A program made the translations under genes and the position numbers. Below the pieces are notes generated by a model. The model was not told the origin of the DNA. It ran no database searches and worked only from the letters and a program-made list of their open reading frames with translations. From the NCBI GenBank assembly GCA_039583875.1, contig CM077162.1, positions 58,386,822 through 58,450,821 on the forward strand: a stretch of DNA of 64,000 nucleotides, in the 5' to 3' direction. Below are positions 2,487 through 62,326 of this stretch, one piece after another. This DNA is from Platanthera guangdongensis. Lineage: Eukaryota; Streptophyta; Magnoliopsida; Asparagales; Orchidaceae. Positions within the stretch are counted from its first letter, which is position 1. Every line of letters starts with the position of its first letter.

Positions 2487-4291
2487 TGTTGGGTACATTG
2501 GAATATATGTACCTGATTTGAAATAAGCCTCACCCTACTCAATGATATACATCAAGGTGTATTTGATGTGTTTTGAGTTTATTGGTGTAGGTTAAGTAAT
2601 TGCAGGGAAAGTAGAAAAGTTTATAAGTCCATGTGTCGACACCTAGAAGAAAAGTTTCGACACTTAAGAAGGCTTGTGTCGACACCTAGAGAAGCAGTGT
2701 CGACACTTGGAGAAATTGTGTCGACACCAGGAAGGCAGAGTCGACACCAGAAGCAAAGTGTCGACACATACAGGCAGTGTCGACACACAATGAAGAAATG
2801 TCTAAAGAATTAGTGTCGACACTTATAAGCAGTGTCGACACCCAGAGAAACTTTGTCGACCTCAAAAGTGTCAACACTAGGAGGCTGTGTCGACACTCAG
2901 CAAAACTTCAACAAAGTTTAAGTACAAGTGTCGACACAAAGGAGATGTGTCGACACTCAGCAAAACATCAACAAAGTTCAAGTACAAGTGTCGACACTAG
3001 AAGGCTGTGTCGACACCCAGCAAACTTCAACAAGTTTAAGTACAAGTGTCGACACAAAGGAGATGTGTCGACACTCAGCAAAAGTCTCAACACATGAAGA
3101 TGTGTCGACACAAAGGAGATGTGTCGACACTCAGCAAAAGTTTCAACATAGAAGGCATGTGTCGACACAAAGAAGATGTGTCGATACTTAACAAGTTTCA
3201 ACACAAGAAGATGTGTCGACACAAAGGAGTTGTGTCGACACTTAGAAGAAATCAACTAAGTATTGAAGAAGGACTTGTGTCGACACACAGGATCATTGTC
3301 GACACATTCTAAAGAAGCAGTGTCGAGAAGTAGTTTCGACAACACAAGGAGTTGTGTCGACACAAATAGACCAAGTGTCGACATAAGTAGACTAAGTGTC
3401 GACACTAGCCTTCATGGTGTCGACACAACTCCTTGTGTTGTAGAAACTACTTCTCGACACTGCTTCTTCAGAATGTGTCGACACTGATCCTGTGTGTCGA
3501 CACAAGTCCTTCTTTAATACTTAGTTGATTTCTGCTAAGTGTCGACACAACTCCTTTGTGTCGACACATCTTCTTGTGTTGAAACTTGTTAAGTGTCGAC
3601 ACATCTTCTTTGTGTCGACACATGCCTTCTGTGTTGAAACCTTTGCTGAGTGTCGACACATCTCCTTTGTGTCGACACATCTTCATGTGTTGAGACTTTT
3701 GCTGAGTGTCGACACATCTCCTTTGTGTCGAGACTTGTACTTAAACTTGTTGAAGTTTGCTGGGTGTCGACACAGCCTTCTAGTGTCGACACTTGTACTT
3801 GAACTTTGTTGATGTTTTGCTGAGTGTCGACACATCTCCTTTGTGTCGACACTTGTACTTAAACTTTGTTGAAGTTTTGCTGAGTGTTGACACAGCCTCC
3901 TAGTGTCGACACTTTTGATGTCAACAAAGTTTCTCTGGTGTCGACACTGCTTCTAAGTGTCGACACTGATTCTTTAGACATTTCTTCATTGTGTGTCGAC
4001 ACTGTCTATATGTGTCGACACTTTGCTTCTGGTGTCGACTCTGCCTTCCTGGTGTCGACACAATTTCTCCAAGTGTCGACACTGCTTCTCTAAGTGTCTA
4101 CACAAGCCTTCTTAAGTGTCGACACTTTTCTTCTAGGTGTCGACACATGGACTTAGAAACTTTTCTGCTTTCCCTGCAATTATTTAACCTGCACCAATAA
4201 ACTCAAAACACATCAAATACACCTTGATGTATATCATTGAGTAGGGTGAGGCTTCTTCAAATCAGGTACATATATTCCAATGTACCCAACA
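2487..4291 (-). repeat. Element A 3' terminal repeat: 1.8-kb inverted repeat packed with GTGTCGACAC
   Basis: The left arm 2487-3363 and right arm 3417-4291 are reverse complements of each other, with scattered substitutions and small indels, separated by a 53-bp unique loop (3364-3416). The outer end reads TGTTGGGTACATTGG and the inner end CCAATGTACCCAACA. Between them lie roughly 22 copies per arm (hand count) of GTGTCGACAC or one-base variants, spaced about 15-45 bp, partly in a higher-order unit containing AAAGGAGAT and TCAGCAAAACTTCAACAAAG. Many short open frames here merely translate the repeat (CRHSAK/VDTQQ) and are not genes. Confidence 0.92.
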
Positions 4292-4306
4292 ATCTCCCCC
4301 TATTTG
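4292..4306 (-). other. Element A polypurine tract
   Basis: The minus strand reads CCAAATAGGGGGAGAT directly before the 3' repeat. The same core adjoins the LTR of element B at 27000. It is the expected primer site for plus-strand DNA synthesis. Confidence 0.85.
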
Positions 4307-4564
4307 GAGAAGTCATAACCCTTAGTCAATGATATACACCATACATAACAAATTCTCAGTATGATGTAAAACAGTAATATTTGACAGGGAAAATACTTAA
4401 ACATGCATGAACAGAACATGTATATACCATAAGCTCAGAATAATTAATGTAATAAATGAACATATAATATTGTTCTTACAAATTCCAACATTTTCATTAG
4501 TCAAAAGTTTACATAGAATTTTAATACAAATGATTACAATATTTAAACTAAAGAAAATGCTATC
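4307..4564 (-). other. Element A 3' untranslated spacer
   Basis: AT-rich sequence between the stop of the extra ORF and the polypurine tract. No open frame or repeat of note. Confidence 0.6.
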
Positions 4565-7400
4565 CTAAGGCTTCTCTGGTTCCTTGATTACAATCCCTTT
4601 TCCAGATTGAATCTTTGCTTGAAATTGAGCTTCAGTGTCATCAACAGCAGCAGGCTTCTTCCCTTTAAGATCTTTCTTTTTCAACTCTTCGGCCTTTATC
4701 TTCTGCCTTTCAAAATAGTGATAAGGCTTGAGAAAATACTTGCTAGGCTCCTGTGCATTAGGAGGTAGCTTTCCCAGTTTAGCCTTTCTTCTATACTGTA
4801 CTATGCCCTCTTGCCTATTCTCATGCTTCCTCCACTCCAGGTCAGAATACCACTTGACTCTATCCAGGACATTGTCCTTAGCAGCCTTCCATGCAGTCAA
4901 GATGATATTCCTGGAAGTGAGGCTCCATTGTTCAAAATCAGGCCTCAATTCAGCTTGCTCTCTGAATCTTTTCTTAGACAATTGAGCCTCTTGTTCCTTT
5001 AATTGTTCCTTTAATAAGGCATCTTGCTCTTTGAGTATTGCCTCTGGCACAGGCTGGACAACTTTCTCTATGATGACATTCTGATTTCCCTCAGGAGGAC
5101 TATACATAGACTGTATCTCTTGATGTATCATGTCAAATTCTGGTGGAGGGTATATCACCTGAGCTACTTCAGCTTGCTCTCCTCCAAGATATGCAGGATT
5201 GATTCCAGACTCTGCAATATTATCATCATCACATAAGGGTGGATATCCAAGGGTGGCTCTGATGGAATTTGAAATCCATTTGGCATGACAGAGCCTGCCT
5301 TGACTAATAACCTCTCCCCCTTTATGACTTCTCTCTCTATATGATCCCTCAGATCATCTTTCTGAAATCTAATCTGTGCATTCAGATAGTTAACTCCATC
5401 TTTATAAAAAGGTTTTAACCTTTGGAGCTTATCAGTAATTGCCTTCTGAGAGTCTTCAATGACAATTTTAACAGCAGTTAGGCTCTCTTGTAATTGCTTG
5501 TCAAATTCTTCTTTGGCAGTGGCACTTTGTGCAGTCTGGGCAGTAGCTAGATTCTTTATTTCAGTTATAATAGCATTATGTGAAGCTGTCAAATTATCAT
5601 TCATCCTTATCTGGTTTTCCAGGACATAGCCTTGCTTCACTTCTAGCTCATCAAGTTTTGTCTTTATTTTCACTTGATGTGTCGCCAGATAGACTACTGC
5701 ATTTCCTCCCTTATGGAAACAATCAGTCATTTCCTTCTTGTTAAGATTCACTTCAAATCTGATAGATTTGATGTCTTATGCAAGATCAAACTGCAGTGAC
5801 TTATGCCCTTCATCCACATACTTTTCTAGAGCTTGCCTTTGCTCATCCAGCTTAATTTGTAAAGTCACCATCAGTGAACTGTAATCAGTAGATGGGGAAG
5901 GTTGTGGAGCAATTGTTTGTAGGGCTTTCTTATAGTTCTGGCTTCTTCTCTTGAAGACCTGGAACTTCCTCTTATTGGCCCTAACAGCCTCTTCATCCTC
6001 TGAAGCAGATGTGCTGACTATGTCTACTCTGTCTTTAGGACTAGGAGGTAACTCCTTCTCAGTCCTTTGTGGTTCCTAGGCATCCTTTGGCTTCTCAGTC
6101 TTTTGTGTAGCAGTTTCCTCTATATTCTCCATATACTCACCCTCAATATCTACTTTCTCCCCCTCAGCAGCAGCTTTCTCATTCTGAAAATTAGTTTGTA
6201 GAAGATCAGGGAATAGCTCTTCTAAGGTAAATTCCTGTTGGGAATGAGCTGGAGAATCTCTTATCTCATCAACCACTTTATCAGCAACAGATGTGTCCTC
6301 CATGACAACATCTTGGGGTTGAGGTTGTATATGTGTTTGCTGATGAATATCAGGTAAGAAATCAGTCAAAACTTCTTCCTCAATAGTGAAATCTAATTGA
6401 CTAATTTCAGTGATTACCTCTAGGATTGTTTGAGTAGCCCTTTCACTCTCTAGAGGAGTTGGCTCTTCCATAAGTAGAGGCTCCCCCTGGATTGGATCCA
6501 GGTGAATTGAGCTAGCTGAGGGTAGCTCCCCTGCCTCTGTGTATCTTCTTGTCTAGCTGGAGACTGTCCAGCATTTCCAGTTTCTTCATCATCAGGAGTA
6601 AAAACAACTTGCTCTACAGAGCTGCTTGAGGATTCTTGAGCCACAGTGGTTGTCTTCTTCTTCTGTGGTGTGTCCTTTACTGGAGTTGGCATTTCTTTTG
6701 TCAAGACTCTATCCCACCTAGAGAAGATTCTTAAATCCATTCTCCTCATGTGGTTTATCTTGGAACCAGCTGCTTGATTCATCACCTCTGGAATACTTCC
6801 AGCTAGGTATAAACTCAGAATTCTTCCCAGATTGGGCTTCTTCATACTCTCTTTTATCTTTTCAAACATAACTGTAGACCAATCAGTATTAAGTTTGAAG
6901 ATAATCCTTGTCATCAAACTGAACATATAAGCTGAAATCCTGTCATGTCCTCCAGGCTTGCTCAGGATGACCTTGCCAACTATTTCAGACAGAAATTTTC
7001 CTTGGATGTTCATTCCTTTTCTGTTGAAAACAGATCCAATTTTCAGATTTGAATCCAGTCCACACCATCTCAATGCCTCTCTAGTCTTAGAAGCAGATAT
7101 ATCTTCTACCTCCTTTGTTCTTGGTAGTTGAAGTACTTTCCTGAGACTCTTTGGTGTGACCTTGACTTTGGTCCCATGAACTCTGGACTTAATCTTAAGT
7201 CCAGTATCATCAACTGAAGCTGCACTCAAAAATTCCAGGACCACCTTCTTTCAGATCTTGATGGGTTCTGAAACAAGGTATTCCAGTCCAGTTTCGGCAA
7301 TTAGGGTTACCACACCTTTGATTTCAGGTTCCGCGTCATCAAAGGCATGTCGCACGAGTTCATATCCTTCATTAACATTCTCTTCTAGCTTGGGAGCCAT
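4565..7400 (-). pseudogene. Element A extra ORF downstream of pol (historically 'env-like'), broken
   Basis: The likely start is the ATG at 7398-7400 (MAPKLEE), about 100 bp after a TATA box. An in-frame TGA interrupts it at 7251-7253, then a 264-residue stretch (7244-6450) aligns with the N-terminal domain of the extra ORF of element B (GKVILSKPGGHDRIS against GKVLLAKHSAHDTIS; FSRWDRVLTK against FGKWDRQISK). A frameshift near 6470 leads into an acidic Glu/Gln/Pro-rich part, stops near 6076 and 5770, and a long probable coiled coil (about 5750-5400, LDELEVKQGYVLENQIR), then a frameshift to a Lys/Glu-rich C-terminus (5158-4565). The N-terminal part resembles the 'putative plant transposon protein' domain. 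I see no convincing envelope signature; function unknown. Confidence 0.8.
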
Positions 7401-7912
7401 TAGGGTTTGAAGAAATTTTGAATTTAGACGAGAGAGATGTCGACACACAAGTTTGGTCTCGAAACTTGGGTGAGCGTGTCGACAAACAATGGGGAAAACC
7501 TATTTATACCTTTCTAGAATTGAAGGTGAAAAGGCGCGTCAAAATACTTAAATTGTGTCGACACTGTTGAAAAGTGTTGACACTTACTTATAATGTCTCG
7601 ACAACTATGTGTCGACACAAGTATAGTAGACAGAATATATGTATCGACACTTGTATATGTGTCGACACCACTCAGCTCGATACTTAGTCGAGACTTTACT
7701 AGACTAATTCTGTGTAAAGCCTAAGTGTCGACACCACCTTGGATGTGTCGACACCTACACTGCATGTGTCGACACAAATTCTCTGAAGTGTCGACACAGA
7801 CTTCCTAGATGTGTCGGCACCATTTCTCAGAAATGTCGACACCCCTTCTATGTGTCAACACAGACAACTCTGTGTGTCGACACCATTTTACTTAGCCAAT
7901 TTTTTTTGTAAA
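7401..7912 (-). promoter_or_regulatory. Element A spacer: GTGTCGACAC array plus TATA box before the extra ORF
   Basis: Between pol (stop at 7913) and the extra ORF (ATG at 7400) lie about 10 or more copies of GTGTCGACAC and variants (about 7435-7890). These are the same 10-mer that fills the terminal repeat at 2487-4291. Near the ORF-proximal end the minus strand reads TATAAATA (7501-7508) and then a leader of about 100 bp to the ATG. Array, TATA box and ATG spacing fit an internal promoter. This is inference; no transcript was seen. Confidence 0.6.
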
Positions 7913-10900
7913 CTATTCTAAGTTTATCATCCCTAATTCAATTTTAAATTTATTGAATTTGGTTTCATCTAAGGGCTTAGTATACATATCAGCTAACTGA
8001 TTTTCTGTCTTAACATACTCTAGGGAAATATCTTCTTTTTCCACATGTTCTCTTAGAAAATGATATTTTATTTCTATGTGCATAGTCCTACTATGGGAGA
8101 CAGGATTATTTGCAATAGAAATAGCACTTGTAGAATCACAAAATAAAGGTGTTCTACTTACTTGAATACCATAATCTTCTAGCTGGTGTTGTATCCATAG
8201 TAGTTGTGCACAGCAGCTTCCTGCAGCAACATACTCTGACTCAGCTGTGGAGATAGCCACACTGGTTTGCTTCTTGCTACTCCATGAAATTAGTCTTCCA
8301 ACTAGAAATTGACAGGTTCCAGTTGTACTTTTCCTATCTTCCTTGCAGCCTACAAAATCTGCATCTGAATAACCTGTCAGTTCAAAATCTCCATTCCTAG
8401 GGTACCAAAGGCCTAGATAAGGAGTGCCCTTAAGATATCTCAAAATTCTTTTGACTGCTGTCAAGTGAGATTCTTTAGGGCAAGCTTGGTACCTAGCACA
8501 GACACATGTAACATACATGATATCTAGTCTACTTGCAGTCAAATATAGTAGGGAGCCAACTATCCCTCTATACAAAGTTTCATCTACAGGTTTCCTTGCA
8601 TCATCTTTGCATAAAGACATTGTTGACCCCATAGGAGTTCTCATGGTAGTAGATGTTTCCATACCATACTTCATTATTAATTCAAGGGTGAACTTAGACT
8701 GGCATATGGATAAACCATCCTCAGTCTGTCTAACTTGGAGACCCAAGAAGAACTTCAGTTCCCCATACTGCTCATTTCAAATTGTCCTTGCATTAGTTTT
8801 GCAAACTTCCTGCAAAGACTACTTTCTGTAGACCCAAATATGATGTCATCTACATATATTTGGACTAAGATGATCTTACCTCTGGATTCCCTAAGGAATA
8901 GAGTCTTGTCTATTTTCCCCCTTGTGAATTTATTCTCAATGAGGAAACTAGACAGAGTTTCATACCGAGCCCTAGGGGCTTGTTTTAACCCATACAAAGC
9001 CTTCCTAAGTCTATAAACATAATTAGGTTTAGTAGAATCAACAAAACCTGATGGCTGTTCTACATAGACTTCTTCCTTCAGATTTCCATTCAAAATAGCT
9101 GACTTAACATCCATTTGGTATACCTTGAATCCTTGGAATATTGCATAGGCAAGGAACATCCTTATTGCTTCCAGTCTGGCTACTGGAGCAAAGGTTTGAT
9201 CAAAATCAATAACTTCTTCCTGCATATATCCTTTAGCAACTAGTCTAGCTTTGTTCTTTATAATTACTCCATTTTCATCCAACTTATTCCTAAAGATCCA
9301 CTTAGTTCCAATAATATTGTGGCCCGTTGGTTTAGGAACAAGCTCCCAGACTTTGCATCTTTTGAACTGGTTCAGCTCCTCTTACATAGCCTCAATCCAA
9401 TGAGGATCTAGGATTGCTTCTTCAAATTTCTTTGGCTCTATTTGGGATAGAAAGCTGGAGTAGAGAACTGAACTTAGATTCCTGCTCCTTATTTATACCC
9501 CTTGTCTGAGATCTCCAATAATTTGATTGGCTGGATGATCTTTTAAATGCCTATTTGCTGGAGGCAGCCTGTCTTCTGGTTGTACACCTTCAGCTTCTTC
9601 ATTCAGCTGCTCCTCTTGGTCTTATTCAGCAACATGAGTATCTTGTACTCCCCCTGGACAGCAGCCACCTTCTTCTACTTGCTGACTTGCAGTAGGACCT
9701 TCTGCAATAGTAAGCTTTTCCATCTTCTCAGTCACGCCTGTGGAGCTGCAAACACTTCTAGACAATTCATTGTTAATGAGTCTAGCTTCATCAAACACTA
9801 TATGTACTGACTCTTCTACAACTTGAGTAGTCAAGTTGTAGACCCTATAAGCCTTACTGTTGTTGTTGTACCCAACAAAGATCCCCTCTTGGGATTTGGC
9901 AGCAAACTTGGTTAAATAAGACTTACTATTGTTAAGTATATAACATTTACAACCAAAGATCCTGAAATAGGATAGATTTGGTTTTCTGCCCTTCACAATC
10001 TCATAGGGGGTCTTATTGTGGCTCTTGGTGATAGTAGCCCTATTGATTATATGACATGCAGTATTAACTGCCTCAGCCCAGAAATATTTTGGGAGAGATG
10101 TATCACTCAATAGGGTTCTACCAGCCTCTATCAAGGTTCTATTTTTTCCTTTCAGCAATACCATTTTGCTGAGGTGTTCTTGGTGAGGAAAATTCCTAAA
10201 ATATCCCAAACTCTTCACATAGCTTTGTCATGCTATCAGACTGGAATTCAGTACCATGGTCACTTCTTAATTTTGCCACTATACTGTTTAACTCATTCTG
10301 AATTTGTTTGACAAAACTATAAAAGATACTAGGAGTTTCAGATTTTTGCCTTAGGAAGAATACCCAGGAAAACCTTGAATAATCATCTACAACCACAAAT
10401 GTGTAGACCTTCCTACCTAGGCTGTGAACTGGCATAGGACCAAAAAGATCCATATGCAAGAGGTATAGGCATCTCACAGCATCTTTGTTCTCAATGCTAT
10501 TAAAGGTGGATTTGGTCTGCTTGCCCTTTTGACAAGCTGAGCATATCCCATCCTTTATACACTTAACCTGAGGACCATTCCTCACTAACTCTTTGCTAAA
10601 GAGTTGGCCAATTGTCTTATAGTTAAGATGAGCCAGCCTCTTGTTCCATTTAACACAATGTGAGACTTTCTCATCAGCTACAAGACAAATAGGAGAAACT
10701 ATGTTCTCACACATAATGTCTAGACAATAGACATTTCTCTTCCTATATCCAGTCAAAATGATCTTTTGATCACTAGACCTACTGATATGACAACCATCCT
10801 TGACAAATGAGATGTCATATCTTAAATCACTCAGCTGACTTGTGCTAATGAGGTTTTGTTTCAAACCCTTTACATAAGCCACTTGAGTAATTGTAATTAG

Positions 10901-11080
10901 GTTGCTAGAAATGTTACCAAAGCCTTTGATGATTCCTTTTTCTGAAGCACCAAAGGTAACCTTATGACCATCCTTGATTGGTGTATAGTCCTTCAGCAAT
11001 CCCCTAGTTCCAATCATGTGCCTGGAACATCCACTGTCCAAGTACCATATTGGGGCATGGCCACTTGGACTCACCTGCAA
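7913..11080 (-). pseudogene. Element A pol (PR-INT-RT-RNase H, Ty1/copia)
   Basis: From 11080 downward: protease motif WYLDSGCSRHM (catalytic Asp present), GAG-pre-integrase (HLNYKTIGQL, CSACQKGKQTK), and integrase core (HMDLFGPMPV, LRSDHGTEF with the second Asp). A frameshift near 10200 continues the core (9622-10218, PKYFWAEAVNTA), then come stops in the linker (9500, 9384). RT is 8755-9282 ([37 protein letters not shown]). A frameshift near 8750 leads to RT end and RNase H (7913-8746, DADFVGCKEDRKST, STAESEYVAAG, ADMYTKPLDE). The order INT-RT is diagnostic of copia. The frame is the same as gag, separated only by one TAA. Needs several repairs to work, so inactive. Confidence 0.9.
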
Positions 11081-11086
11081 AACAGA

Positions 11087-13126
11087 TTACTTAACCTTAG
11101 AACCCAAATAATTCTTGGGTCCTTGGTGCAAGTTAGTCTGATTCTGAACAAAACTACCTGTAGCTTTTCTAGCAGGCAGTTTGCTACTCACCTTGGCACT
11201 TGAGTTATGCCAACAATCTATGGCAAAGTGGCCTACCTTGCCACAACACCAGCACTCAAATCTATTGTATCTTTGTTTAAGTACAACCCTGGCTGTTTTA
11301 TCTACATCAGGCTTCTTGTTGAGTACTGGGGCTTTGCCCTTAGACTTGGACTTTACTGTCCAGGCAGGTTTTGTAAAACCCAATCCAGTTTTACCCTTAT
11401 GAGGTACAAACTCATCTATCAAAGGTAGAACAGATTTTGGTTTAGAAAAACTTGCTACAATATCTCTCTCCTTCTGAAGACTAATCTCCAGATTTCTAAT
11501 TTGATCATTTTTAAATGTAATAGTCCCCATCTGAATAACTGTAATATTCTTCAGTCTGGCTATTTTATTTAATTTCTGATCTAATAACTTGTCAAAATCT
11601 GTTGCAGCCACTTTAAGACTAGCAATCTCCTTAGCCTGAGTTTTGGCCAAGAGTTTGCTTTTCTTCAAAGCCTGCAACAATACTCTATATTCATCAATTA
11701 ACTGATGAATGTCTCCTTCAGATTCAGATCCACTCACATCACTTGATGCAGATGTATCTGATTCTGATCCAGCACTAGAAATTGAACTTGAAGAACAATT
11801 TTGTACCTGACTAGGTCCAGGCTGATCCTGGATTTTGTCTCCTTCTGATAAGGCCATTAGTCCCTTGCACTGAATGTCCTCCTGCTCATAAATTGAGTTC
11901 ATTAGCTGCATGAACTCATTTTCTTCTTCTTCAGCAAACAAGCCAATATATGCTTCAGCTTCTGAATCTATTTCTGAAGATGATATATCAGTCAGACTTT
12001 TATCCTTCTTGGCAACAAAGGACCTTTCCTTTTTGCCCTTGAACTGTGTCTTCTTCTTGTCCGTAGACTCTTTCCTCTTTTCTGGACAATTAGCTATTAC
12101 ATGTCCTTGTCTATTGCAATAATAGCATACTATCTTTGAGGATGTAGTTTTACTAGACTTGGACTTTCTCCTGTCATTCCTTGAAGACTTCCTGTTCTGA
12201 TAATAGTCATCTTTTGTCTGTGAAGTGGATGGCTTGGACCTCCACTGCTTCTTCTTTAGAAACTTCTGAAAATGCCTAGTAAATGCAGCATAGTCTTCAT
12301 CACTTTCACTGCTTTTTGACTTCTTGCTATTTGAAGTATCTGATACTATCTCAGTAACTATTTATGGTGGAGATGGAGACATGCTTCTATATTTCTTAGT
12401 GGCTTCAATCTTGAAGGCCACAGCTCTTTCTTTGTGCTCCACCCTAGTAGTCTTTTCTTCCTCCTTCCTTACCATTAACTGCATCTCATAAGATAACAGT
12501 TTTCCAAACAAAGTTGGAGGAGGAATGTCTGCTAATTTGGCCATTTCCCTTATGACACAAATCTTAGTATCCCAGTCCTTTGTCAGGGATCTCAAGAACT
12601 TATCATTCAACTCATAATTGCTGAACTCTCTTCCATAGGACATCAATTCATTGACTATCCTATAAAATTTCTTATAGCATTCAGTTATGCTATCAGACCT
12701 TCCTTGTCTGAAGCTTTCATACTCTTGGTTTAACAAAGACTTCCTGTCTTGTCTTACCTCTTCTGATCCTTCCATATAGACTATCAGTGTGTCCCACATT
12801 TCTTTTGATGTTTTACAATGAATCAGATTCTGAAATGTGGCATCATCAATTGCACTTACTATAATATTCTGAGCCCTCTCGTCCATAGTGGCCAGAATTA
12901 TTTCATCCTTGGTCATTTCTGAATAGTCTTTGGGTGTTCTCTGATTGGCATCTAGAACAGATACTCTTATTAGCACATATGGCCCTTCTTTAACAGTAAT
13001 ATATATTCTTGGGTCTGAGGCTTCCATAAAAAGTCTAACCCTTTCTTTCCAAATGCCAAAGATCTCCTTTCTGCAGATTGGAAACTTCATGGATCCTAGC
13101 TCTTTGTGATTCTCAGTTGAACCCAT
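11087..13126 (-). pseudogene. Element A gag with two CCHC zinc knuckles, one in-frame stop
   Basis: The ATG at 13124-13126 opens a 680-codon frame with a single internal TAA at 12362-12364. The N-terminal about 250 residues are a copia UBN2/gag-type capsid domain (FGIWKERVRLFMEASD, MWDTLIVYMEGSEEVRQDRKSLL). After the stop the same frame carries CYYCNRQGHVIANC (about 12125-12085), an acidic stretch, a coiled-coil-like region (about 11700-11450), and a second knuckle CWCCGKVGHFAIDC (about 11250). It should package element RNA in the particle. The frame runs to a TAA at 11087, and pol follows in the same frame. Two knuckles and the long C-terminal extension match large Sirevirus-like Gag proteins. 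Confidence 0.85.
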
Positions 13127-13201
13127 TTTCTTGATTCTTGATTATACTGATTCTGCCTACAGGATCTTGACTCAGACTGTTATGTCCTTTTTTAGTAACC
13201 T

Positions 13202-13214
13202 CCCTCTGATACCA
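13202..13214 (-). other. Element A primer-binding site
   Basis: The minus strand reads TGGTATCAGAGGG, two bases after the 5' terminal repeat. This resembles the usual plant initiator tRNA-Met PBS and is shared with element B (36032-36044). Confidence 0.85.
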
Positions 13215-13216
13215 CT

Positions 13217-13276
13217 TGAAAGAACTAGTGCCTATTCACCCCCCCCCCTCTAGGTGTTTAGGCACTAGTTCTTTCA
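13217..13276 (-). repeat. Element A 5' terminal repeat reduced to a 60-bp hairpin
   Basis: The arm at 13217-13234 (TGAAAGAACTAGTGCCTA) and its perfect reverse complement at 13259-13276 enclose a 24-bp loop with a run of C. It sits where a full 5' LTR should be, between PBS and target duplication. Its inner end (minus strand ...AGTTCTTTCA before the PBS) corresponds to the LTR end of element B (...GCACTTTCA). It has no similarity to the 1.8-kb repeat at the other end of A. Confidence 0.85.
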
Positions 13277-14130
13277 AGTTACCTCTGAGATGACCGGGGA
13301 GGGAGTGATGTTGATAAGGTGGACTACAATGAGAACAGCTTCAGCCTAGAGGGAATGGGGAGCCGGGGTAAAGAGGAGAAGGGCATAGGAAGTTTCGATG
13401 ATGTGACGATGTTTTCGTTCGGCGACCCCATTTTGTTCGTCGGTGTGCGGGTAGGATGCTGATGGAGGGGGCCGTGAGATTGGAGGAGGTCACGCATGGT
13501 GGAAGAGAGAAACTCTTGAGCGCAGTCAGAACAAAAAATTTTAATGCAACACACGAACTAAGTATGAATCATAGTGGTAAACATGTGATAAACAATGGGT
13601 ATTTCAGAGCATTGTCGTAATAAGTAAACCCAGACGCAGCGAGAGAAGTCATCAGTAAAGCTAACATAATAAAAATATCCAGAATGAGAGGCAATGGGGG
13701 CGGGGCCCCAAATATCAGAATGCACTAGATCAAAGGGGGTTGTGGTTTGAGAATCACTACTGGAAAATGGTAGAGCAAGGTGCTTTGCGAAATGACAACC
13801 CGTACAGACAGATAAGGGGAATAGGAGACATGACCCAAAGCTCTAGAGTGGATAACACTTTGAAGTTGGTCAGCAGACAAATGACCTAAACATTTGTGCC
13901 ATAAGTCGGCATCAGATGTAACAGAAAGAACAAACGGTGATGAAGATACTGGTGGTAGGACATGAAAATACTCCAGCTGATACAGGCCACCAGTTATACG
14001 ACCCCGTCCAATCCTCTAAGCCGTCCGTAAATCCTGTACAACACAATCAGAGGAGGAAAATAAAATAGTTAGGCCAAGATTACAAAGAAAACTAACAGAA
14101 ATGATGTTCATGTGTAGACGAGGGGCATGA
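13277..14130 (-). pseudogene. Element F pol, protease end to integrase core
   Basis: The first five bases (13277-13281) are the right AGTTA duplication of A. Read on the minus strand from 14130: the end of the protease region (LHMNIISVSFLCNLG), GAG-pre-integrase (LWHKCLGHLSADQLQSV, CTGCHFAKHLALPF), and integrase core (FDLVHSDIWGPAPI, FTDDFSRCVWVYLL), then a degraded stretch with frameshifts around the second catalytic region (13324-13554). It abuts element C at about 14131, where roughly the N-terminal 100 residues of the protease region are missing. It joins 2481 on removal of A. Confidence 0.85.
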
Positions 14131-25489: not shown

Positions 25490-26999
25490 TGAAAGTGCAG
25501 CTAGATCTGATATACTCTAGAGGGGGGTGAATAGAGTATATGGTGCTTTGAAACTTTTTACAATAATTGTTGTAATAAGAGTGAGCAGGGAAGCAGTTGA
25601 AAATCTAATCACATAACTAAACTATACAAAAACTAATCACAGAAAAATCAAGGCCAGAAACAAACATAAAGACAAGCAAAACCAGAGGACACAAGGAAAT
25701 ATAGTGGTTCCCCTAAACTTGGGTACATCCACTCTTCTACCACCCTAGGTAGGAATCCACTGCAGGATGAGTTGATCATGTGTCCTGGGCACCAATGAGC
25801 TTTTGATAAGGTGCTCAAAAACCAAATCAGATTTTTTGATCAGGTGTCTTGCTACCAATGAGCTTTTGACAAGGTGCTCAAAAACCAAGCTCAAACTTTT
25901 GAAGAGAGCTTGAGAAACCCTTTACAGAGAGGGGGTGAGAGAGTGATGGAAGTCTTCTCTTTCTCAAACAACTGAGAAGACTATGTGGATTGTTGATGTC
26001 AAAGCTCCCCCTGAATCCTTGAGATCTTCAGGAAGAAAAGCTTTGCTGAGGGTGATAGGCCTTCAAAGATTGAACTCCAGCAATAGATGATTTCAGCAAT
26101 GACTGAAATGTTGAATGTCTGGAGTCTTGAAAGTATGTTGGCCTTGAACACTTTGAAACTAAAGAGATCTGAAGATTTCTGAAAAGATTGATCTCCTTGG
26201 ATGAGTGTTCTTGAGAATTCTTTGAGACAGAAGATTTTGTTAAAGATTATTGATGTCTGTCTGTGTGTTTGTAAAACTGTAATCTGTCTCAGAGATTCAA
26301 AAAATTCATCTCTTTTATTCTCTGATACTGAACAAAACATTCTCTCTGAGAAGAATAGCCATTGGCCAGCATTAATGGCATCCTTAATTGCAGAATCTCT
26401 TCAAGAGGAAAGTCCATAGAAATATTTCTTGAAACTTGGTCCAGAAATGAATGAAAACGGCTAGGAAATCTCTGAATTAATTGCAGAATAACTCCTTAAC
26501 TGATTTGAATTTGAATCTAGAAACATCCTTGAAGTTATCTGAAATCGTCGAACTGAGCTCTGCTATCGTCGAACTGAGCTCAGCGATCTGGAAATTTACA
26601 GCCGCAAAATATCGTCGATCTGAGCTCAAAGATCGTCGAACTGAGCTCAGAGATAAAGATCCAAAGCAGAGTCAAGATCGTCGACCTGAGCTCACCGATC
26701 GTCGAACTGAGTTCGACGATATGATGAAGTTGAGCTCAGCGATTGTCGAATGGAGTTCGACGATCTGTCGAAGTTGAGCTAGACGATCGTCGATCGGAGT
26801 TCGATGAATCGTCGTGCTGAGCTCAACGGTATGACTTAGTCTCCAAAAACAAATCTTGTTCTTCAGGGCAGCTTCCAAACCTAGACTTCTAACCCTTAGA
26901 CTCAATTCTAATTGACCTATTGAGCTATACAGGAGGTCAAGCATTGATTCCTAGAGACATAGTGATCCTGACCCAAATTAGTAATAGGGTGTTTCAACA
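25490..26999 (-). repeat. Element B 3' LTR with ATCGTCGA/TCGACGAT array
   Basis: Begins TGAAAGTGCAGCTAG and ends TGTTTCAACA (plus strand). The array at about 26540-26835 consists of GATCGTCGA and GTTCGACGAT half-sites separated by ACTGAGCTCAG-like spacers. A small hairpin, ATATACTCTAGAG...GTGAATAGAGTATAT, sits at the PBS-side end (25508-25543). Confidence 0.92.
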
Positions 27000-36046: not shown

Positions 36047-37555
36047 TGAAAGTGCAGCTAGATCTGATATACTCTAGAGGGGGTGAATAGAGTATATGGT
36101 GCTTTGAAACTTTTTACAACAATTGTTGTAATAAGAGTGAGCAGGGAAGCAGATGAAAATCTAATCACAGAACTAAACTATACAAAAACTAATCACAGAA
36201 AAATCAAGGCCAGAAACAAACATAAAGACAAGCAAAACAGAGGACACAAGGAAATATAGTGGTTCCTCTAAACTTGGGTACATCCACTCTTCTACCACCC
36301 TAGGTAGGAATCCACTGCAGGATGAGTTGATCAGGTGTCCTGGGCACCAATGAGCTTTTGATAAGGTGCTCAAAAACCAAATCAGATTTTTTGATCAGGT
36401 GTCTTGCCACCAATGAGCTTTTGACAAGGTGCTCAAAAACCAAGCTCAAACTTTTGAAGGGAGCTTGAGAAACCCTTTATAGAGAGGGGGTGAGAGAGTG
36501 ATGGAAGTCTTCTCTTTCTCAAATAACTGAGAAGACTATGTGGATTGTTGATGTCAAAGCTCCCCCTGAATCCTTGAGATCTTCAAGAAGAAAAGCTTTG
36601 CTGAGGGTGATAGGCCTTCAAAGATTGAACTCCAGCAATAGATGATTTCAGCAATGACTGAAATGTTGAATGTCTGGAGTCTTGAAAATGTGTTGGCCTT
36701 GAACACTTTGAAACTAAAGAGATCTGAAGATTTCTGAAAAGATTGATCTCCTTGGATGAGTGTTCTTGAGAATTCTTTGAGACAGAAGATTTTGTTGAAG
36801 ATTATTGATGTCTGTCTGTGTGTCTGTAAAACTGTAATCTGTCTCAGAGATTCAAAAAATTCATCTCTTTTATTCTCTGATACTGAACAAAACATTCTCT
36901 CTGAGAAGAATAGTCGTTGGCCAGCATTAATGGCATCCTTAATTGCAGAATCTCTTCAAGAGGAAAGTCCATATAAATATTACTTGAAACTTGGTCCAGA
37001 AATGAATGAAAACGGCTAGGAAATCTCTGAATTAATTGCAGAATAACTCCTTAACTGATTTGAATTTGAATCTAGAAACATCCTTGAAGTTATCTGAAAT
37101 CGTCGAACTGAGCTCTGCTATCGTCGAACTGAGCTCAGCGATCTGGAAATATACAGCAGCAAAATATCGTTGATCTGAGCTCAAAGATCGTCGAACTGAG
37201 CTCAGAGATAAAGATCCAAAGCAGAGTCAAGATCGTCGACCTGAGCTCACCGATCGTCGAACTGAGTTCGACGATATGATGAAGTTGAGCTCAGCGATCG
37301 TCGAATGGAGTTCGACGATCTGTCGAAGTTGAGCTAGACGATCATCGATCGGAGTTCGACGAATCGTCTTGCTGAGCTCGACGATATGACTTAGTCTCCA
37401 AACAGAAAATCTTGGACTTCAGGGCAGCTTCCAAACCTAGACTTCTAACCCTTAGACTCAATTCTAATTAACCTATTGAGCTATATAGGAGGTCAAGCAT
37501 TGATTCCTAGAGACATAGTGATCATGACCCAAATTAGTAATAGGGTGTTCCAATA
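36047..37555 (-). repeat. Element B 5' LTR
   Basis: A 1509-bp partner of 25490-26999, a few percent different by eye. The ATCGTCGA array is at about 37098-37395. It ends GTTCCAATA before the GAGAG duplication, i.e. terminal CA mutated to TA. Confidence 0.92.
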
Positions 37556-38054: not shown

Positions 38055-38857
38055 AGTTGGTGGAAACTGAACAACAGTACTACCAGTAGCAACAAACAGA
38101 CTTTGAGCTGCAGCGGTGGCGCGTTGAAGCAGGGGTGACTGAAGGAGTAATTCCTCTATATGTTGAAGTCGATCTATAGCAGCTGCAGCAGTGGTAGTTG
38201 AACTTGGGCCACGACCACACCCCCGACCATGGTCGTTATGATGGTTGTCATCAGGGCGCGGGGGACAAGTGGGGCATTCAAACTTCATGTGGCCCACCTT
38301 TTTACAGTAGTTGTATGTAATATTTCCTTCTTGTGGCCGAACTGCAAGAACTGTATCAGTCCCATGAGGAGGCAGAGGATCCACAGGAGGACGGAGGCGA
38401 GTCTCTTCATCAATTAGGGCAATCAAGGCTTCATCCAATGTAAGGAGAGGAACCCGATGAAGGAGTTAAGTTGTGAGAAGAGCAAACTGGGTCACATGGC
38501 AGCAAGGAACTGATGGAGATGGCCCTCAGAAAGATGGCGCTGAAACTCCAGTGAGCGAGCACAACTGCAGGGAAAAGGGATCATGGAATCAAATTCATGC
38601 CAGAAGGTGCTCATCATGGTGAATAAATACTGAATGGACCACCATTCCTGTCGTGCAGACCGAGAATCACAGATAAGATGATGATGGCGAGCTCCACTGC
38701 GGGGAACAAAACGATCCCGAAGATATTCCCACATAGCACGGGCGGAGGAGAGGCGATCAATGGAGGTGAGGAGAGGACCTGCGACAGACTCCAGGATGTA
38801 AGCCTAAATGGCCTGACCGCGACATCGCCAAAGATTTGTGTCATCAGTGGTAGTTGT
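38055..38857 (-). pseudogene. Element F gag, C-terminal part
   Basis: Minus-strand copia capsid blocks: AYILESVAGPLLTSIDRLSSA, AMWEYLRDRFVPRSG, FWHEFDSMIPFPC, FQRHLSEGHLHQFLAAM. A knuckle reads YNYCKKVGHMKFEC, in which the first Cys is replaced by Tyr (TAC). A Gly/Arg stretch (HGRGCGRGP) follows. Several stops (about 38802, 38490, 38468). It ends at the border with element C (38054) and is interrupted on the other side by element G at 38858 (last five bases GTTGT are the duplication). Orientation, order and family fit the gag of the F copy whose pol lies at 322-2481 and 13282-14130. Confidence 0.75.
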
Positions 38858-41482
38858 TGTAACGCCCCAAAATTTTGAAAGAGGGATGATCAGCGTTTTT
38901 GGCCAAGATTGGGTCTTGGTAAGGGGTGACACGGCTAAGGACACGGGCGTGTCCAAGGCCGTGTCTCGGTCGGGTTCAACAAAGAGCCTGGGAGATCGTC
39001 GATTTGAAATCGACGAAGTGTGGTCGAGTCTGCGTTTGACGATTTTGGTTCGACGATCTCGCCAGAGATCGTCGATCTCTCCAGCGATCGTCGAGCTCGC
39101 CAGCGATCGTCGATCCGGCCAGCGGTCGACAATCTTGGGTCGACGATAAGGCCAGCGATCGTCGATCTGGCCAGCGCTCGATGTTCTGGCAAGCGATCGA
39201 TGAACTGCGCTCGACGATTTGCACGGTCGACGATTTTGGTTCGACGATCAAGCCAGTGATCGTGGTTCTGGCCAGAACTCGACGTTCTGGCCAGCGATCG
39301 ACGATCTGCGTTCGATGATCTGGCTTGTGCTCGACGATTTTGCGCTCGTTGATTTGTGCGTTCGACGATCGTCAAGGCTTCTAATACGGCCTGAGACATG
39401 GGCGTGTCCCAGGTCGTGTCGTTCTCGGGTCTTGAGCCGGGACGTATAAGGGGTTGGACACGGCCTGGAGCCCAGGCGTGTTCAGTTTGGACACGGCCGT
39501 GTCAAATGTGACACGGGCGTGTCAAGGCCCCGTGTCTTATTTTGGGTGCGATGGTTTCGGCGTCGATTGGGGAACATGGCCTTGGACACGGGCGTGTCAC
39601 AAGCTGTGTTCGGCCCAGCTGTTTTGATTTTCAGTTCGAATCATGGTCGTTCTTCCCTTTCTTTTGGGATCTGATGGTCCAGGATTTGCTCTTGATGAGT
39701 TAAGTCCGAGAATAGGGTTAGAAACCCTCATTCTTCTCCAAGCTTTCTCTTACTAAAGTTCTAGAGAGAGGGGAGAGCTAGGAAGAAGGTGAAGAAGAGA
39801 TCCGGCTGTTGGAGAGGCTTCGGTGCTCCAAATCGCGAGCCGAGTCCAGATCCATGGAGGCTAGATCGTTGCGAAGGTTTTCATCCGGCTATTTTTCCAT
39901 GGCTAGGAAGAGGAGTCAGAAGGTAACGACACTTCTCCTCTTGGTTTTAGGATGCGTGTCTTGTATCTCTTATTTCCATGGTTTTTGGGCACCAATCTCT
40001 CATATGAGAGGGGTTTGGGTAGCCAAGGTTCAAGAGGAACCTCCGGGTCGATTGAGTCCGTCCCCGACATGTTTTTGCATTATAGATCCACTTCGTTAGT
40101 GGATTAGGCATGGTGGGTGAAGCCATAGTCGCGACCGTTAGTCCGACTCGGTGATGTTGCATACGAGGTTTAAGGATTCGTAGAGATTCGTTGCGGCAAG
40201 AGGCCGTTTGTGATGTTTTTGATGTTTGTGATGTTCTTCCCTTTATCTTGCGTGAGTACGTGTGGCCGGTACCGGACAAGGTTAGCTCCTCATTGGCGGT
40301 AGATGGTTTTCTTGGTGGACAAGGTTAGCTCCGCATGGGTGGTAGATGGTTTTCTTGGTGCACGGGAACGCTGCAGTACGAATGAGGGATTAGGGTGGAA
40401 TTGTCTTGGTTTGTGATGTGCCAAGATGTGGTTGTGTCTCTGTGGTCGGCTGGCTATCCCGTGACGTGCAAGTCATGTGTGGAAAGTGTCCCGGCGAGAC
40501 TAGTCCCCTTTTTGTGAGACTGACGAGAACGCCAAGCATGTGGCAAGCCCGGGCAATGAGGCCATGAGCGGGTGGGGTCCAGCAAGGGTTCTTAGAATCG
40601 GTCAGTGTGTTGGACGGAATCCTGACATGAGAAGTCAGAGTTTGTCGGCAAGCTTGGGTCTACGATTGTGAGCGGGTGGAGCCTTGGCAAGAGTACTGTG
40701 TAGCATCTTGTATTCCGTTGGGGGATTGTTGTTCCCCTTTATTTGTGGCTTTATGCCAATGGGAAAATGATGAGTACCCATGTGATGTGATGATGTGCTA
40801 GATGCATATGCGATAGGGTGCCTTGGGTAAAGCCCGGGTTGTTGCATACATGCTGCATAAGTAGGTACCTTTTATTATATGCTCAACAATAGAGAACATG
40901 TATGTTGTTTGAGACATCCAAGCCTGTTCTTAGTGCATTACTTGTTTATATATAAATTGCATATAAAGTGCTGACTTGTAGGTTGGAGGGTTCCCGGGGT
41001 CCGTTAGGGGCGGCCGGGAGGAGATGTGTTGGTTACACAGTTTGAGGTCAGCCTTTGCTGACCCACGTTACTAATAATTTTTACAGGGCAAGGATCGCAA
41101 GCAGGAGCTAGCTCGCCGGCCAAAAAGGTCTAAGCCTCATGAAGTGTTACCTTTTTTTGTAGCTCTACTTTTATGACCTTGTATGTTTGATGCCCATATT
41201 GATCGGCTTGCATGCCGAGGTAGACTAGGAGTGCTTATGCACTTTTATGACTGATGTATTATTTGAGTTTGGACTCACTTTTATTGTAAGGCCATAAGGC
41301 CATTTCGTTACTCTTATAGGTGTGGATAACTTCTAGTCTTGCTTGTTGTTTCCGCTGTGTTGTATTATGAGTTTTGAGATTGTGTAGCTATATCATCTTA
41401 TAATATCGAAGCTGTGGCATCTGTATGTTGTGGGGCCCCGGCCGGACCCATATTATACGGCCATTACAGGGGAGGTGTTACA
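38858..41482 (+). repeat. Element G 5' LTR with two classes of palindrome array
   Basis: 2625 bp. About 38925-39610 holds GACACGGGCGTGTC-type palindromes (for example 38938-38970, 39475-39540), and about 38990-39380 holds GATCGTCGA/TCGACGATC half-sites alternating with CTGGCCAGCG. Downstream is ordinary mixed sequence with a second AT-rich TATATATAAA at about 40945. Translations of the array are not genes. Confidence 0.92.
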
Positions 41483-41485
41483 ATT

Positions 41486-41497
41486 TGGTATCCGAGC
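41486..41497 (+). other. Element G primer-binding site
   Basis: TGGTATCCGAGC, three bases after the 5' LTR, close to the initiator tRNA-Met type with one mismatch. Confidence 0.8.
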
Positions 41498-41579
41498 AAG
41501 GTTAGATTCAAGTTCAGTGCATAGAGAAGTTATCCACATAAGAGTAACGCGGGACCATGGGTGTCCTTATGTTTAAGTC

Positions 41580-42840
41580 TTGAGATTAGAGACTGATTCC
41601 TTTTTTCTTATTTTCTTGAAGAGTGCAAGCAATGAGGCGGGTACGTCGAGAGCAAGAGAAGAGCTTTCGGTGAGCAGCGCTACTACTCAAGGTCAGGTGG
41701 GCATGGGTGTAAACCCGGCCGACTTCTGCCGCATGCTTGCAGAAGAGATGGTGGCAGCCCAAGCTGCAGCGACAGCTCATGTAGCAACGCCGGTTGCTCA
41801 GGTAGCAACTCCTGCTACCTCGGATACGGCGACGGCCGTTCCAGGCTGAGAAGTCAGGCGAGTAGAGCCTTTTGGCAGAAAGAGTTGTGTTCGGGCATGG
41901 GGACCGGCAGATGAAGTACTTTCTGAGCTTCCATCCCCTATCGTTCAAGGGAGTTGATACGCCAACTGATGCAGAGGATTGGTGGGCTCGGATTCAAGAG
42001 CTTTTGAGGGCGGCAGAGACGCCAGAAGAGAAGAAATCTGAGTATGCGGCGTTCATGTTAGAAGGAGACGCCAAGTTGTGGTGGGTGAGCCATAGCGGCC
42101 GCCAATTTTCTGGATGCACCCCGTCGATGGAAGAATTTGGGGATGCTTTTCTAAAGAGGTACATTCCCATTTCTACATGGTTGGCCCTTCAGAGGCAGTT
42201 TCTGCACTTAATGCAGCGAGACAAGATGGTGGACGAGTATGTGCAGGAGTTCACCTGTTTTGGTCGTTACGCGGGAACGACGATGACAGATGATGTATAG
42301 AGGGATAACCTCTTTTATCAAGGGCTGAGGGAGAATCTAAGACAACCCCTCATTGTCATGAAGAGGGCGGGTTTCAATGAGCTAGTGGAGGATGCCAGAA
42401 CTTTGGAAAGTGATCTAGAGCGAAGCCAACATCATAAGGGCTTTGCGCCCAAGCAAGGAGAAGGGAAGCCTTCTCAATCCCAAGGAAAGTCGGAAGGGAA
42501 TAGATGGAGGAAGAAGCCTCACCCATACAAGTCCGGTGAGAAAATCAAGTGGACGTCTGGAGGTTCTCACTCTAGGGGACCATCGACGTGTTTCAACTGT
42601 GGAAAGGTGGGACACATTGCTCGCTTTTGTAATCAAGGAGGTGCAGAGAAGGAGCCAAGGCAAGAGCAGATTGTGCGATTCGGCCCCAGTGCCGCAGAAA
42701 AAGGAAAGATGGCGGAATCGAGCGCTTCTCGGTTCCAACCGGTGCAACCAAGGGCTTACAATCATGGACAGCAGGAAACGATCCGCCAACCCGATGTGGT
42801 GACAGGTATGAGGAAGTTTAAGTTTAACATTGTGCTTCAT
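41580..42840 (+). pseudogene. Element G gag
   Basis: N-terminal Ala/Thr-rich part (41580-41849), then after a frame change the Retrotrans_gag capsid core (41872-42300: LSFHPLSFKGVDTPTDAEDWW, EYAAFMLEGDAKLWW, FGDAFLKRYIP, DEYVQEFTCFGRY) ending in a TAG at 42298. The same frame resumes (NLFYQGLRENLRQPL) to 42840, with knuckle CFNCGKVGHIARFC at about 42591-42632. Typical single CCHC gag of plant chromoviruses. At least one frameshift and one stop. Confidence 0.85.
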
Positions 42841-43076
42841 ACTTTTAGACCTTTATGTGTGATGTCTATGTTATAGGCTTCGTATTAGTTTTCGGATACC
42901 CCGATAGGGTATTGTTCGATACGGGAGCATCACACTCCTTTCTTGCGGAGAGCTTCATCCAGAGAATAGGAGTTGAGTCATTTTCGGCGTATGCGGAGCT
43001 GAAAGTGCGCATGCCTAATGGGTCTTCCATGACACCGGGGCCAAAGGCGCATTTGTTGGGAGCTGGACGGAGTTGA
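42841..43076 (+). pseudogene. Element G protease
   Basis: VLFDTGASHSFLAESF contains the D-T-G-A active site of Ty3 proteases at about 42917. It lies in a different frame from gag and RT and ends in TGA at 43074; RT begins eight bases later. About 75 residues are recognisable. Confidence 0.82.
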
Positions 43077-43083
43077 CTTCATA

Positions 43084-44805
43084 TTGGTAACAACGGTTTT
43101 ACCATTGGTTGAATTTGATGTGATATTGGGAATGGATTGGTTTACCGAACAACATGCTAGTATTGATTGCCTATCCAAGGTAGTGACCCTAAGGAGCAAA
43201 GGGCAGATGGAAGTCAAATTTGAGGGCCTTTGTGAAGTGGCCTATTCCCTGATATCGGCCATGCAGTTGATGCGGGCGGTTAACCAGGGTGGTGTAGCGC
43301 TTGTAGCATTATTGGAGGTTCTCTTCTCCCAGTTGTCTATTGAGGAAGTGCCCGTAGTGGCAGAGTTCAAGGATGTGTTTCCGGATGAACTTCCTAGAGC
43401 GCCTCCTCGGCAGGAGATCGACTTCTCGATCGAGTTTGTGCCGGAGGCTAGGCCGGTGTCACGTCCTCCATTTAGAATGGCACCAAAAGAGTTGGCTGAG
43501 CTCAAAGTACAGTTACAGGAACTGTTGGAACAGGGGTATATCCGACCCAGTTCTTCACCGTGGAGAGCGCCGGTGTTGTTCGTGAAGAAGAAAGATGGTA
43601 GTATGTGGCTGTGCATAGACTATCGAGAGCTGAATAAATTGACCGTTAAGAATAAGTATCTGATTCCTCGGATAGACGACCTGTTCAACCAGTTGGTGGG
43701 GTCGGTGGTGTATTCAAAGTTGGACTTAAAGTCGAGATACTATCAGTTGCGAATTCGGGACGAGGACATACCCAAGACTGCATTTGGTACGAGGTATGGA
43801 CACTTTGAGTTTACGGTGATGCCGTTCGGGCTGACGAACGCACCATCTGTATTCATGGATTTGATGAATCGGGTGTTCCGACAATACTTGGACTCTTTTG
43901 TAGTTGTCTTTATTGACGACATCTTGGTGTACTCCAAATCAGAAATGGAGCATGAGACTCACTTGCGAATGGTCTTGCAAGTGTTGAGGGAGAATCAGTT
44001 GTATGCAAAGTTCTCGAAGTGCAAGTTCTGGTTAGAGAAGGTGGTATTTTTGGGCCACGTGATTAGTAGGGATGGGGTGGCGGTTGATCCAACAAAGGTG
44101 GAAGCCATCAGAGATTGACCGATTTTGAGAACCTTGGCGGAAGTCCGAAGTTTTCTTGGACTAGCCGGGTACTATAGGAGATTCTTGGAGAATTTTTCGC
44201 GGATAGCTCTACCCCTCACCTCACTCACTCGTAAAGATTATAAGTTTGTGTGGATTTAAGAGTGCAGTCAAGCATTTGAGGCATTGAATGAGAGACTGAT
44301 GATGACTCCAATCCTAAGTCTACCGTAAGGGACCGAGGGATTTCAGATCTTCAGTGACGCATCGGGATGCGGTTTGGGTTGTGTTTTGATGCAACATGTC
44401 AAGGTGATAGCTTTTGGGTCTAGGCAGCTGAAGCTTCATGAGAGGAATTACCTTGTCCATGATTTAGAGTTGGCGGTGGTAATTTTTGCGTTGAAAATAT
44501 GGCGACACTATGTTTATGGTGCAAAGGTGGAGATCTTCACGGATCATAAAAGCCTGAAGTATCTCTTGGATCAAAAGGACTTGAACATGCGGCAACGCAG
44601 GTGGGTTGAGTTCCTTGGAGACTACGAGGTGGCGATTCAATACACGCCAGGAAAAGCTAATGTGGTGGCAGATGCCTTGAGTAGAAAATACTTTGGGCAA
44701 GGGAATTGGATAGAAGCCCATAATGAGCGGTTGGTGCTAGAATGGGAGTCCCTTGGTTTGGAATGTGTGGCGAGAGACGAGTCCAGCATGGCTCGGTTGA
44801 ACTAG
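43084..44805 (+). pseudogene. Element G RT and RNase H
   Basis: One frame with stops at 44116 (TGG to TGA), 44257 and 44326. [64 protein letters not shown], catalytic [11 protein letters not shown] (about 43905-43937), [16 protein letters not shown]. Connection: SFLGLAGYYRRFLENFS. RNase [62 protein letters not shown] well-preserved Ty3 arrangement; loss of function is due to point nonsense changes. Confidence 0.9.
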
Positions 44806-44811
44806 ATTGAA

Positions 44812-46230: not shown

Positions 46231-46300
46231 CAGAGCTCTTCAGTTCAGGTACCATTTACGTTTTGTTCCCTTTTTGCTTTGAAATTTCGGGATGAAATTC

Positions 46301-46318
46301 TTTTAAGGGGGAGAGAGT
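46301..46318 (+). other. Element G polypurine tract
   Basis: TTTTAAGGGGGAGAGAGT just before the 3' LTR. Confidence 0.85.
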
Positions 46319-62321: not shown

Positions 62322-62326
62322 ACGGT

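Follow-up and report, generated by a model that had tools for sequence, protein, structure and literature searches.

A Ty1/copia insertion with two unlike palindromic ends in Platanthera guangdongensis, probably formed by self-priming of both strong-stop DNAs

A stretch of 64,000 nucleotides from Platanthera guangdongensis (contig CM077162.1 of assembly GCA_039583875.1, forward-strand positions 58,386,822 to 58,450,821; called the window here) carries a single Ty1/copia retrotransposon in the minus orientation at positions 2487–13276. This insert begins with TG (2487) and finishes with CA (13276). It lacks two identical direct long terminal repeats (LTRs), which other genomic copies of its family (called sisters) do have, and instead carries inverted fold-backs of different LTR parts. 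The two ends are unlike, with a palindrome of 1,805 bp next to the polypurine tract (PPT) and a hairpin of 60 bp next to the primer binding site (PBS). The structure is real, and it is very probably the outcome of one insertion. Its features are as follows, where U3 and U5 are the unique 3′ and 5′ regions of the LTR.

2482–2486, no strand: target-site duplication (TSD), copy 1, AGTTA, from the sequence
2487–3363, minus: outer arm of the PPT-side palindrome, 877 bp, an inverted copy of U3 that ends with its terminus (sense CCCAACA)
3354–3363, minus: fold point, the self-complementary decamer GTGTCGACAC, folded onto the decamer at 3417–3426, 63 nt upstream in U3
3364–3416, minus: loop of 53 bp in normal U3 order and orientation, the same order as in sister LTRs
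3417–4291, minus: inner arm, 875 bp, the ordinary 5′ part of U3 (TGTTGGG...), from sister comparison
4292–4305, minus: PPT region, AAATAGGGGGAGAT on the sense strand, abutting U3, from the sequence
4565–7250, minus: further open stretches downstream of pol, broken, from open reading frames
7913–11086, minus: pol remnants split by stops, with matches to Pol_BBD, GAG-pre-integrase, integrase core, retroviral SH3-like and RVT_2 domains, and including the frame after RVT_2
11087–13141, minus: gag (Retrotran_gag_2) and CCHC zinc knuckle region in two open stretches, from domain matches and open reading frames
13204–13214, minus: PBS TGGTATCAGAG, followed by an AG spacer at 13215–13216
13217–13230, minus: 14 nt (sense CACTAGTTCTTTCA), the putative extension product of a folded-back strong-stop DNA
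13231–13276, plus: 46 nt oriented like minus-strand strong-stop DNA, in which the element carries its normal LTR 3′ end in reverse, from 34 of 34 sister LTR ends
13277–13281, no strand: TSD, copy 2, AGTTA, from the sequence

A previous reading of this DNA, made from its letters alone, had proposed one insertion within a perfect 5-bp duplication, and this proposal stands: AGTTA lies at 2482–2486 and again at 13277–13281, directly outside the TG and CA ends. The same sequence-only reading held that removing the insert restores the integrase frame of the host element. Indeed, when the flanks are joined by script with one AGTTA, the host copia integrase frame is open across the site, and a stop occurs only farther off. 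The first two letters of the second TSD copy are the same as the AG spacer, so that 13277–13278 could alternatively be an untrimmed end.

The coding region is that of a copia element, with a copia-type gag and the integrase upstream of RVT_2 (PF14223, PF22936, PF13976, PF00665, PF25597 and PF07727, in copia order). A PBS beside an LTR end, a PPT beside U3, a 5-bp TSD and TG...CA ends are likewise those of Ty1/copia elements. From its general architecture we take the family to be SIRE-like, and the PBS TGGTATCAGAG presumably is of the initiator tRNA-Met type. The insert has in common with SIRE-like Ty1/copia elements the copia domains, the PBS TGGTATCAGAG, the PPT GGGGGAGAT and the 5-bp TSD; unlike the sisters of this lineage, which have LTR pairs, it has unlike palindromic ends and no LTR pair. 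DIRS-type retrotransposons, which have inverted terminal repeats, a tyrosine recombinase and no target duplication, resemble the insert in the inverted repeats at their ends. The DDE integrase remnant, the 5-bp TSD and the two unrelated ends set the insert apart from them. One open stretch downstream of pol (6450–7250) matches PF20167 Transposase_32 weakly, below the cut-off of that family.

Sister copies reveal what the normal ends look like. A search of the 4.25-Gb genome with the reverse-transcriptase stretch 9000–9600 returned 8372 candidate matches, which are not confirmed copies. Forty matches were scored, comprising the insert and 39 others at 96–97% identity, and both ends were fetched for the first 20 of the 39. 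Direct LTR starts and ends are present on both sides of 13 of the 20 sisters and on one side of the remaining 7. Complete sister LTRs measure roughly 1.8–2.1 kb, start with TGTTGGG, end with CTTTCA and hold each of the two pieces found at the insert ends once, as had been foreseen from the sequence. A 5-bp TSD flanks 11 of the 16 sisters in which both outer ends are readable. That sisters might already possess such palindromic ends had been named as grounds for discarding the proposal, but among the 20 sisters none of 17 readable PPT ends and none of 17 readable PBS-side LTR ends is inverted. Thus, mirror-image ends are not normal for this family. The PPT side could not be read in L013, L033 and L039, where the fetched stretch holds no element 3′ end, and the PBS-side LTR end could not be read in L029 and L035 (a deletion across the LTR end and PBS) or in L047 (an LTR reaching the end of the fetched stretch). 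In L019 the U3 start is missing, but a direct LTR end remains.

Both junctions of the insert, in the forms searched, are also single in the genome. The PBS-side hairpin pattern (TGAAAGAAC, 25–55 nt, GTTCTTTCAAGTGG, exact) and the PPT-side junction (up to 2 mismatches) each have one match in the 4.25 Gb, at the insert, and exact LTR/PBS junctions of the ordinary type number 802. A first fold-back pattern was rejected as unspecific: it gave 1222 matches at up to 2 mismatches, nearly all of those listed read GGTGATTAGG, probably an ordinary LTR variant, and among the matches listed the only exact one is the insert itself. Scans of viral contigs returned no related loci, nor did a gag protein search (4 matches of 288 candidates).

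These counts bear on the proposal that an active subfamily with a distinct mode of replication regularly has unlike palindromic ends, for which we found no supporting point and which we consider next to impossible. Besides the absence of inverted ends among the readable sister ends, the single occurrence of each junction excludes it for copies with the same fold points, although further members with other fold points or loop lengths could exist. Furthermore, the PPT-side fold lies upstream of a TATA-like box in the sister LTR (in the L011 LTR, fold point 979 and TATA-like box at about 1136). Neither end of the insert therefore seems to hold the promoter core or R (the repeated region of the LTR), and the copy was probably dead on arrival.

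Several sisters have irregularities of their own. In L037 and L047, the 3′ LTR stands directly before AGTGGTAT, a PBS, and in L047 internal sequence is shown after it, as in tandem elements sharing an LTR. L029 and L035 (PBS-side loci L030 and L036) have 5′ LTR deletions that span the LTR end and the PBS and reach similar places in the internal region, approximately 70–80 bp inside. Some 260 bp beyond the 5′ LTR of L043 (PBS-side locus L044) there is an oppositely oriented LTR, and opposite-orientation LTR pieces occur farther out in the flanks of L039, L043 and, weakly (around 80%), L021. We take these pieces for separate insertions.

The PPT-side palindrome (2487–4291) abuts the PPT and is composed of an outer arm of 877 bp, a 53-bp loop and an inner arm of 875 bp. 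These measurements, and arms of 18 bp around a 24-nt loop for the PBS-side hairpin, reproduce those first reported for the two ends. Because the palindrome is detected by BLAST as an inverted match of 1.8 kb, it is not a product of chance. Starting at the PPT, 938 nt that include the loop follow the normal U3 order of the first ten sisters; this direct comparison was used to orient the loop, for which composition alone gave contradictory signs. At the decamer GTGTCGACAC, most sisters continue with ATAAAGA or TTAAAGA, whereas the insert turns back through U3 to its exact terminus. The decamer is its own reverse complement and is present in many copies within U3, so that a 3′ end halting at one of them can anneal to another lying upstream. 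If a PPT-primed plus strand had its 5′ end at the U3 terminus, copying back would stop exactly at that position, as is seen.

Each end of the insert is a fold-back of part of one LTR, and the new outer ends are genuine LTR inner ends, as comparison with sister LTRs supports in agreement with the first reading. That reading had also given TGTTGAAAC as the LTR start of a relative called B, which has an ordinary LTR pair in the window (25490–26997 and 36047–37553). The letters fit the PPT-side copy but not the outer copy, which reads TTGGAACA. Spacer repeats containing GTGTCGACAC are found not only in U3 but also inside the element, at 7725–7862, just downstream of pol.

The arms were compared with each other and with U3 sequences of the first ten sisters. 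Of the 20 LTR ends in these sisters, 17 U3 rows were kept; the rows left out are the PBS side of L023 (an insertion) and the PPT side of L013 and PBS side of L019 (no U3 start). The arms differ at 27 sites, comprising 25 substitutions and 2 indels. When polarized by the sister rows, 14 changes fall in the outer arm and 11 in the inner arm, and 2 could not be assigned. Almost no sister letters are available for five of these sites, which lie at the far arm end, and the split without them is 12 to 10. In columns with at least 12 sister letters, 8 letters common to both arms are absent from every sister row. This division of changes, along with the shared private letters, indicates that the arms were identical, or nearly so, when they were made. 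The arm divergence of 2.9% (25/875) falls inside the range of 0.67–10.49% measured between the LTRs of 12 sisters, 10 of which lie between 1.9 and 4.3%, and is also near that of the B LTRs (35/1506). Thirteen sisters have both LTRs, and L023 was omitted for length. The palindrome is thus as old as the insertions of the family.

Two explanations that deny the palindrome an origin in reverse transcription are unlikely on these data. Long palindromes are a known artefact of long-read libraries, and a chimeric palindromic read or an assembly error could in principle have produced one here. We find this scarcely credible, because the arms differ at 27 sites with changes in both of them, the outer ends are exactly TG and CA inside a matching 5-bp TSD with an open host frame, and an artefact would put no TSD at the far end of the palindrome. 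A normal insertion could instead have been rearranged later in the chromosome by nested insertion, inversion, gene conversion or fold-back repair, and the truncated, interrupted and tandem copies among the 20 sisters lend this some colour. It is nevertheless very improbable, in that the TG and CA ends with their 5-bp TSD would need independent restoring on both sides, and the arm divergence lies within the sister LTR range.

The PBS-side hairpin (13217–13276) has arms of 18 bp each and adjoins AG and then the PBS TGGTATCAGAG. Read on the sense strand from outside, the insert starts TGAAAGAACTAGTGCCTAAACACCTAGAGGGG...GGTGAATAGG. Over its outer 46 nt, this strand reads as an ordinary LTR 3′ end does in antisense, as judged against all 34 sister ends found by motif search, a match in orientation that allows for scattered mutations and varying G-run lengths in the sisters. 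The loop is accordingly inverted (GGGGG on the sense strand) relative to 34 of 34 sister LTR ends, the normal orientation being CCCCC on that strand. Sisters go on with variants of TGCACTTAATC; the insert turns at TAGG to CACTAGTTCTTTCA, AG and the PBS. The turn-point TAGG can pair with CCTA at positions 15–18, and when the 48-nt strong-stop was folded as single-stranded DNA, the 3′ TAGG was placed on this CCTA, in register. Therefore, the inverted orientation of the 46 nt and the turn at TAGG point to a minus strand begun at the U5/PBS border that folded back and copied itself, such that the new 3′ part leads into the PBS. As in self-primed strong-stop DNA, the sequence at this end is that of a minus strand starting at the U5/PBS border, which has turned on itself and been copied as far as its 5′ end.

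A hairpin with a C-run loop (TTCACCCCC...TC) lies just before the PBS at LTR 3′ ends in the family of the insert and in B (13217–13276; 25500–25540; 36060–36095; L009–L048). The stems differ in their letters yet pair (CACCTA/TAGGTG versus ATATACTCTA/TAGAGTATAT), and this retained pairing hints at a function close to the PBS that has been conserved.

The orientation of the loop, which only comparison with the sisters could establish, distinguishes between two ways of forming the ends. The sequence-only reading had proposed that the LTRs of a linear complementary DNA (cDNA) were broken or incompletely made, snapped back and were copied into hairpins. Its core, a fold-back of LTR parts, is borne out, and incomplete synthesis comes closer to the data than breakage of a finished molecule. 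If a finished linear cDNA had broken inside each LTR, both ends would consist of folded-back LTR pieces that are complementary over a short stretch where they turn, as seen, and the PPT-side loop would have its observed orientation. However, a break in the 5′ LTR followed by folding of the minus-strand 3′ end leads to a loop with CCCCC on the sense strand, and thus the observed GGGGG speaks against breakage; a rescue would need a later flip of the 24-nt loop. Breakage also fails to account for the exact end of both copied arms at the LTR/internal borders. We therefore regard it as quite unlikely, and strong-stop self-priming fits the insert better.

It is also rather doubtful that the inverted junctions arose by template switching within one particle, from one cDNA or RNA molecule to another, with no folding of a single strand. 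Pairing of the self-complementary decamers could link two U3 strands just as readily as it could fold one, and copia particles presumably package two RNAs, so that two identical RNAs would fit. Nonetheless, the 8 shared letters found in none of 17 sister rows and the 14-to-11 split demand an identical or nearly identical source, and the 63-nt offset between the decamers naturally gives a hairpin loop.

We conclude that the insert probably results from one integrase-mediated insertion of an aberrant cDNA whose two strong-stop DNAs had both primed themselves; the family from which it derives is SIRE-like Ty1/copia and of high copy number. Both copied arms end exactly at the two primer sites of reverse transcription, which are the LTR/internal borders. 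From these features we infer the following order of steps. A tRNA-primed minus-strand strong-stop would have crossed the 2-nt spacer and entered the LTR by no more than about 46 nt before the TAGG at its 3′ end annealed to CCTA near its 5′ part. Extension by reverse transcriptase would then have copied the strong-stop 5′ end and the attached 3′ end of the tRNA. In the ordinary cycle, it is the plus-strand strong-stop DNA that bears a PBS copy at the 3′ end; the self-primed minus-strand strong-stop, whose 3′ end would now carry the PBS, could have replaced it in the second strand transfer and become the plus-strand 5′ end. On the other side, a PPT-primed plus strand may have copied 938 nt of U3 before its terminal decamer GTGTCGACAC paired with the same decamer 63 nt upstream, and would then have used itself as template as far as its own 5′ end, where the PPT meets U3. 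The minus strand might come most simply from the second packaged RNA, or from another priming event. The resulting outer ends would be genuine attachment ends, of U5 type on the left and U3 type on the right, which integrase could have joined with a normal 5-bp duplication. The PPT-side hairpin, whose stem base is itself a U3 end, would either already have been open at integration or have been opened by the host through gap repair and replication; once the target gap was filled, a duplex palindrome could have resulted.

Several considerations weigh against this model. It requires two rare events within one particle, and one copy only is known. A strong-stop that ends short of R cannot make the usual first transfer, so that the minus strand must have had another source, which has left no trace here. 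The predicted hairpin of the 48-nt strong-stop is weak (−4.2 kcal/mol, with a 3′ anchor of 4 nt only), and 24 of 200 shuffled sequences fold as well, so the folding energy itself is no evidence. Past TGGTATCAGAG, the PBS reads GGAGG, and these letters do not separate a copy of the tRNA from a copy of the RNA. Taken on its own, the PPT-side fold also fits the fold-back of a broken cDNA. Finally, the rarer letter at 5 of the 27 arm sites is also present in a sister, and some of the divergence may predate the fold.

Guo et al. 1997 and Golinelli & Hughes 2001 are reportedly cited in connection with self-primed strong-stop DNA. In excerpts of papers on HIV-1, self-priming of minus-strand strong-stop DNA is presented as an established side reaction of reverse transcriptase that is suppressed by nucleocapsid and called suicidal (PMC4668388, PMC3141651). 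As there described, the strong-stop 3′ end folds on a hairpin and is extended on itself, and the same would have happened in forming the insert. In contrast to this suppressed reaction, the product in the insert seems to have been completed and integrated, and the plus strand seems to have primed itself likewise. Among excerpts of the literature searched, largely open-licence papers, we found no integrated self-primed strong-stop element, and a known side reaction is apparently recorded here for the first time as a completed, integrated element. In Tf1-type retrotransposons, self-priming by RNA starts regular replication; DNA synthesis begins by self-priming there as in the insert, where DNA strong-stops would instead have folded by accident. 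Genomes of the parvovirus type have two different hairpin ends, and two different palindromic ends are likewise found in the insert, although it is a single copy with no evidence of hairpin-dependent replication.

The insert can be viewed as a genomic fossil suggesting that self-primed molecules can be completed and integrated in plants, and as a readable in vivo record of errors in reverse transcription. It also suggests that integrase needs just one U5-type and one U3-type end, in either position. Only tentatively, and as something we hold to be unlikely, might self-priming of both strong-stops constitute a working, integrase-accepted bypass of normal strand transfer, in which each strong-stop copies its own primer (tRNA or PPT RNA) and swaps roles with the other, so that the element ends up without LTRs but with a single U5 end and a single U3 end.

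Insertion of such a cDNA yields a 1.8-kb LTR palindrome in one step, and the insert is a candidate source of a silencing hairpin. LTR hairpins have been proposed as triggers of retrotransposon silencing, and a 2024 study of the Arabidopsis element EVD looked for close inverted LTR pairs, detected none within the reach of its short-insert reads and instead described one antisense nested insertion (PMC11624286). If the self-priming bypass is true and recurs among SIRE elements of plants, it would generate, in one step, LTR inverted-repeat loci able to start small-RNA silencing of a whole family.

Elsewhere in the window, a pair of matching stretches (38856–41460 and 46317–48915, 93.7%) stops exactly at the start of another element (48916–62322), whose LTRs are 98.8% alike and read TTGATG...CATCAA. 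Similar sequence seems to resume past 62322, with CGGTCATTACAGGG there and ACGGCCATTACAGGG after 41460, and this younger element probably lies inside an older repeat (38856–48915). Within the region of the same element, positions 52707–52814 on the minus strand give a borderline Rfam match to plant snoR71 (40.2 bits, gathering threshold 40).

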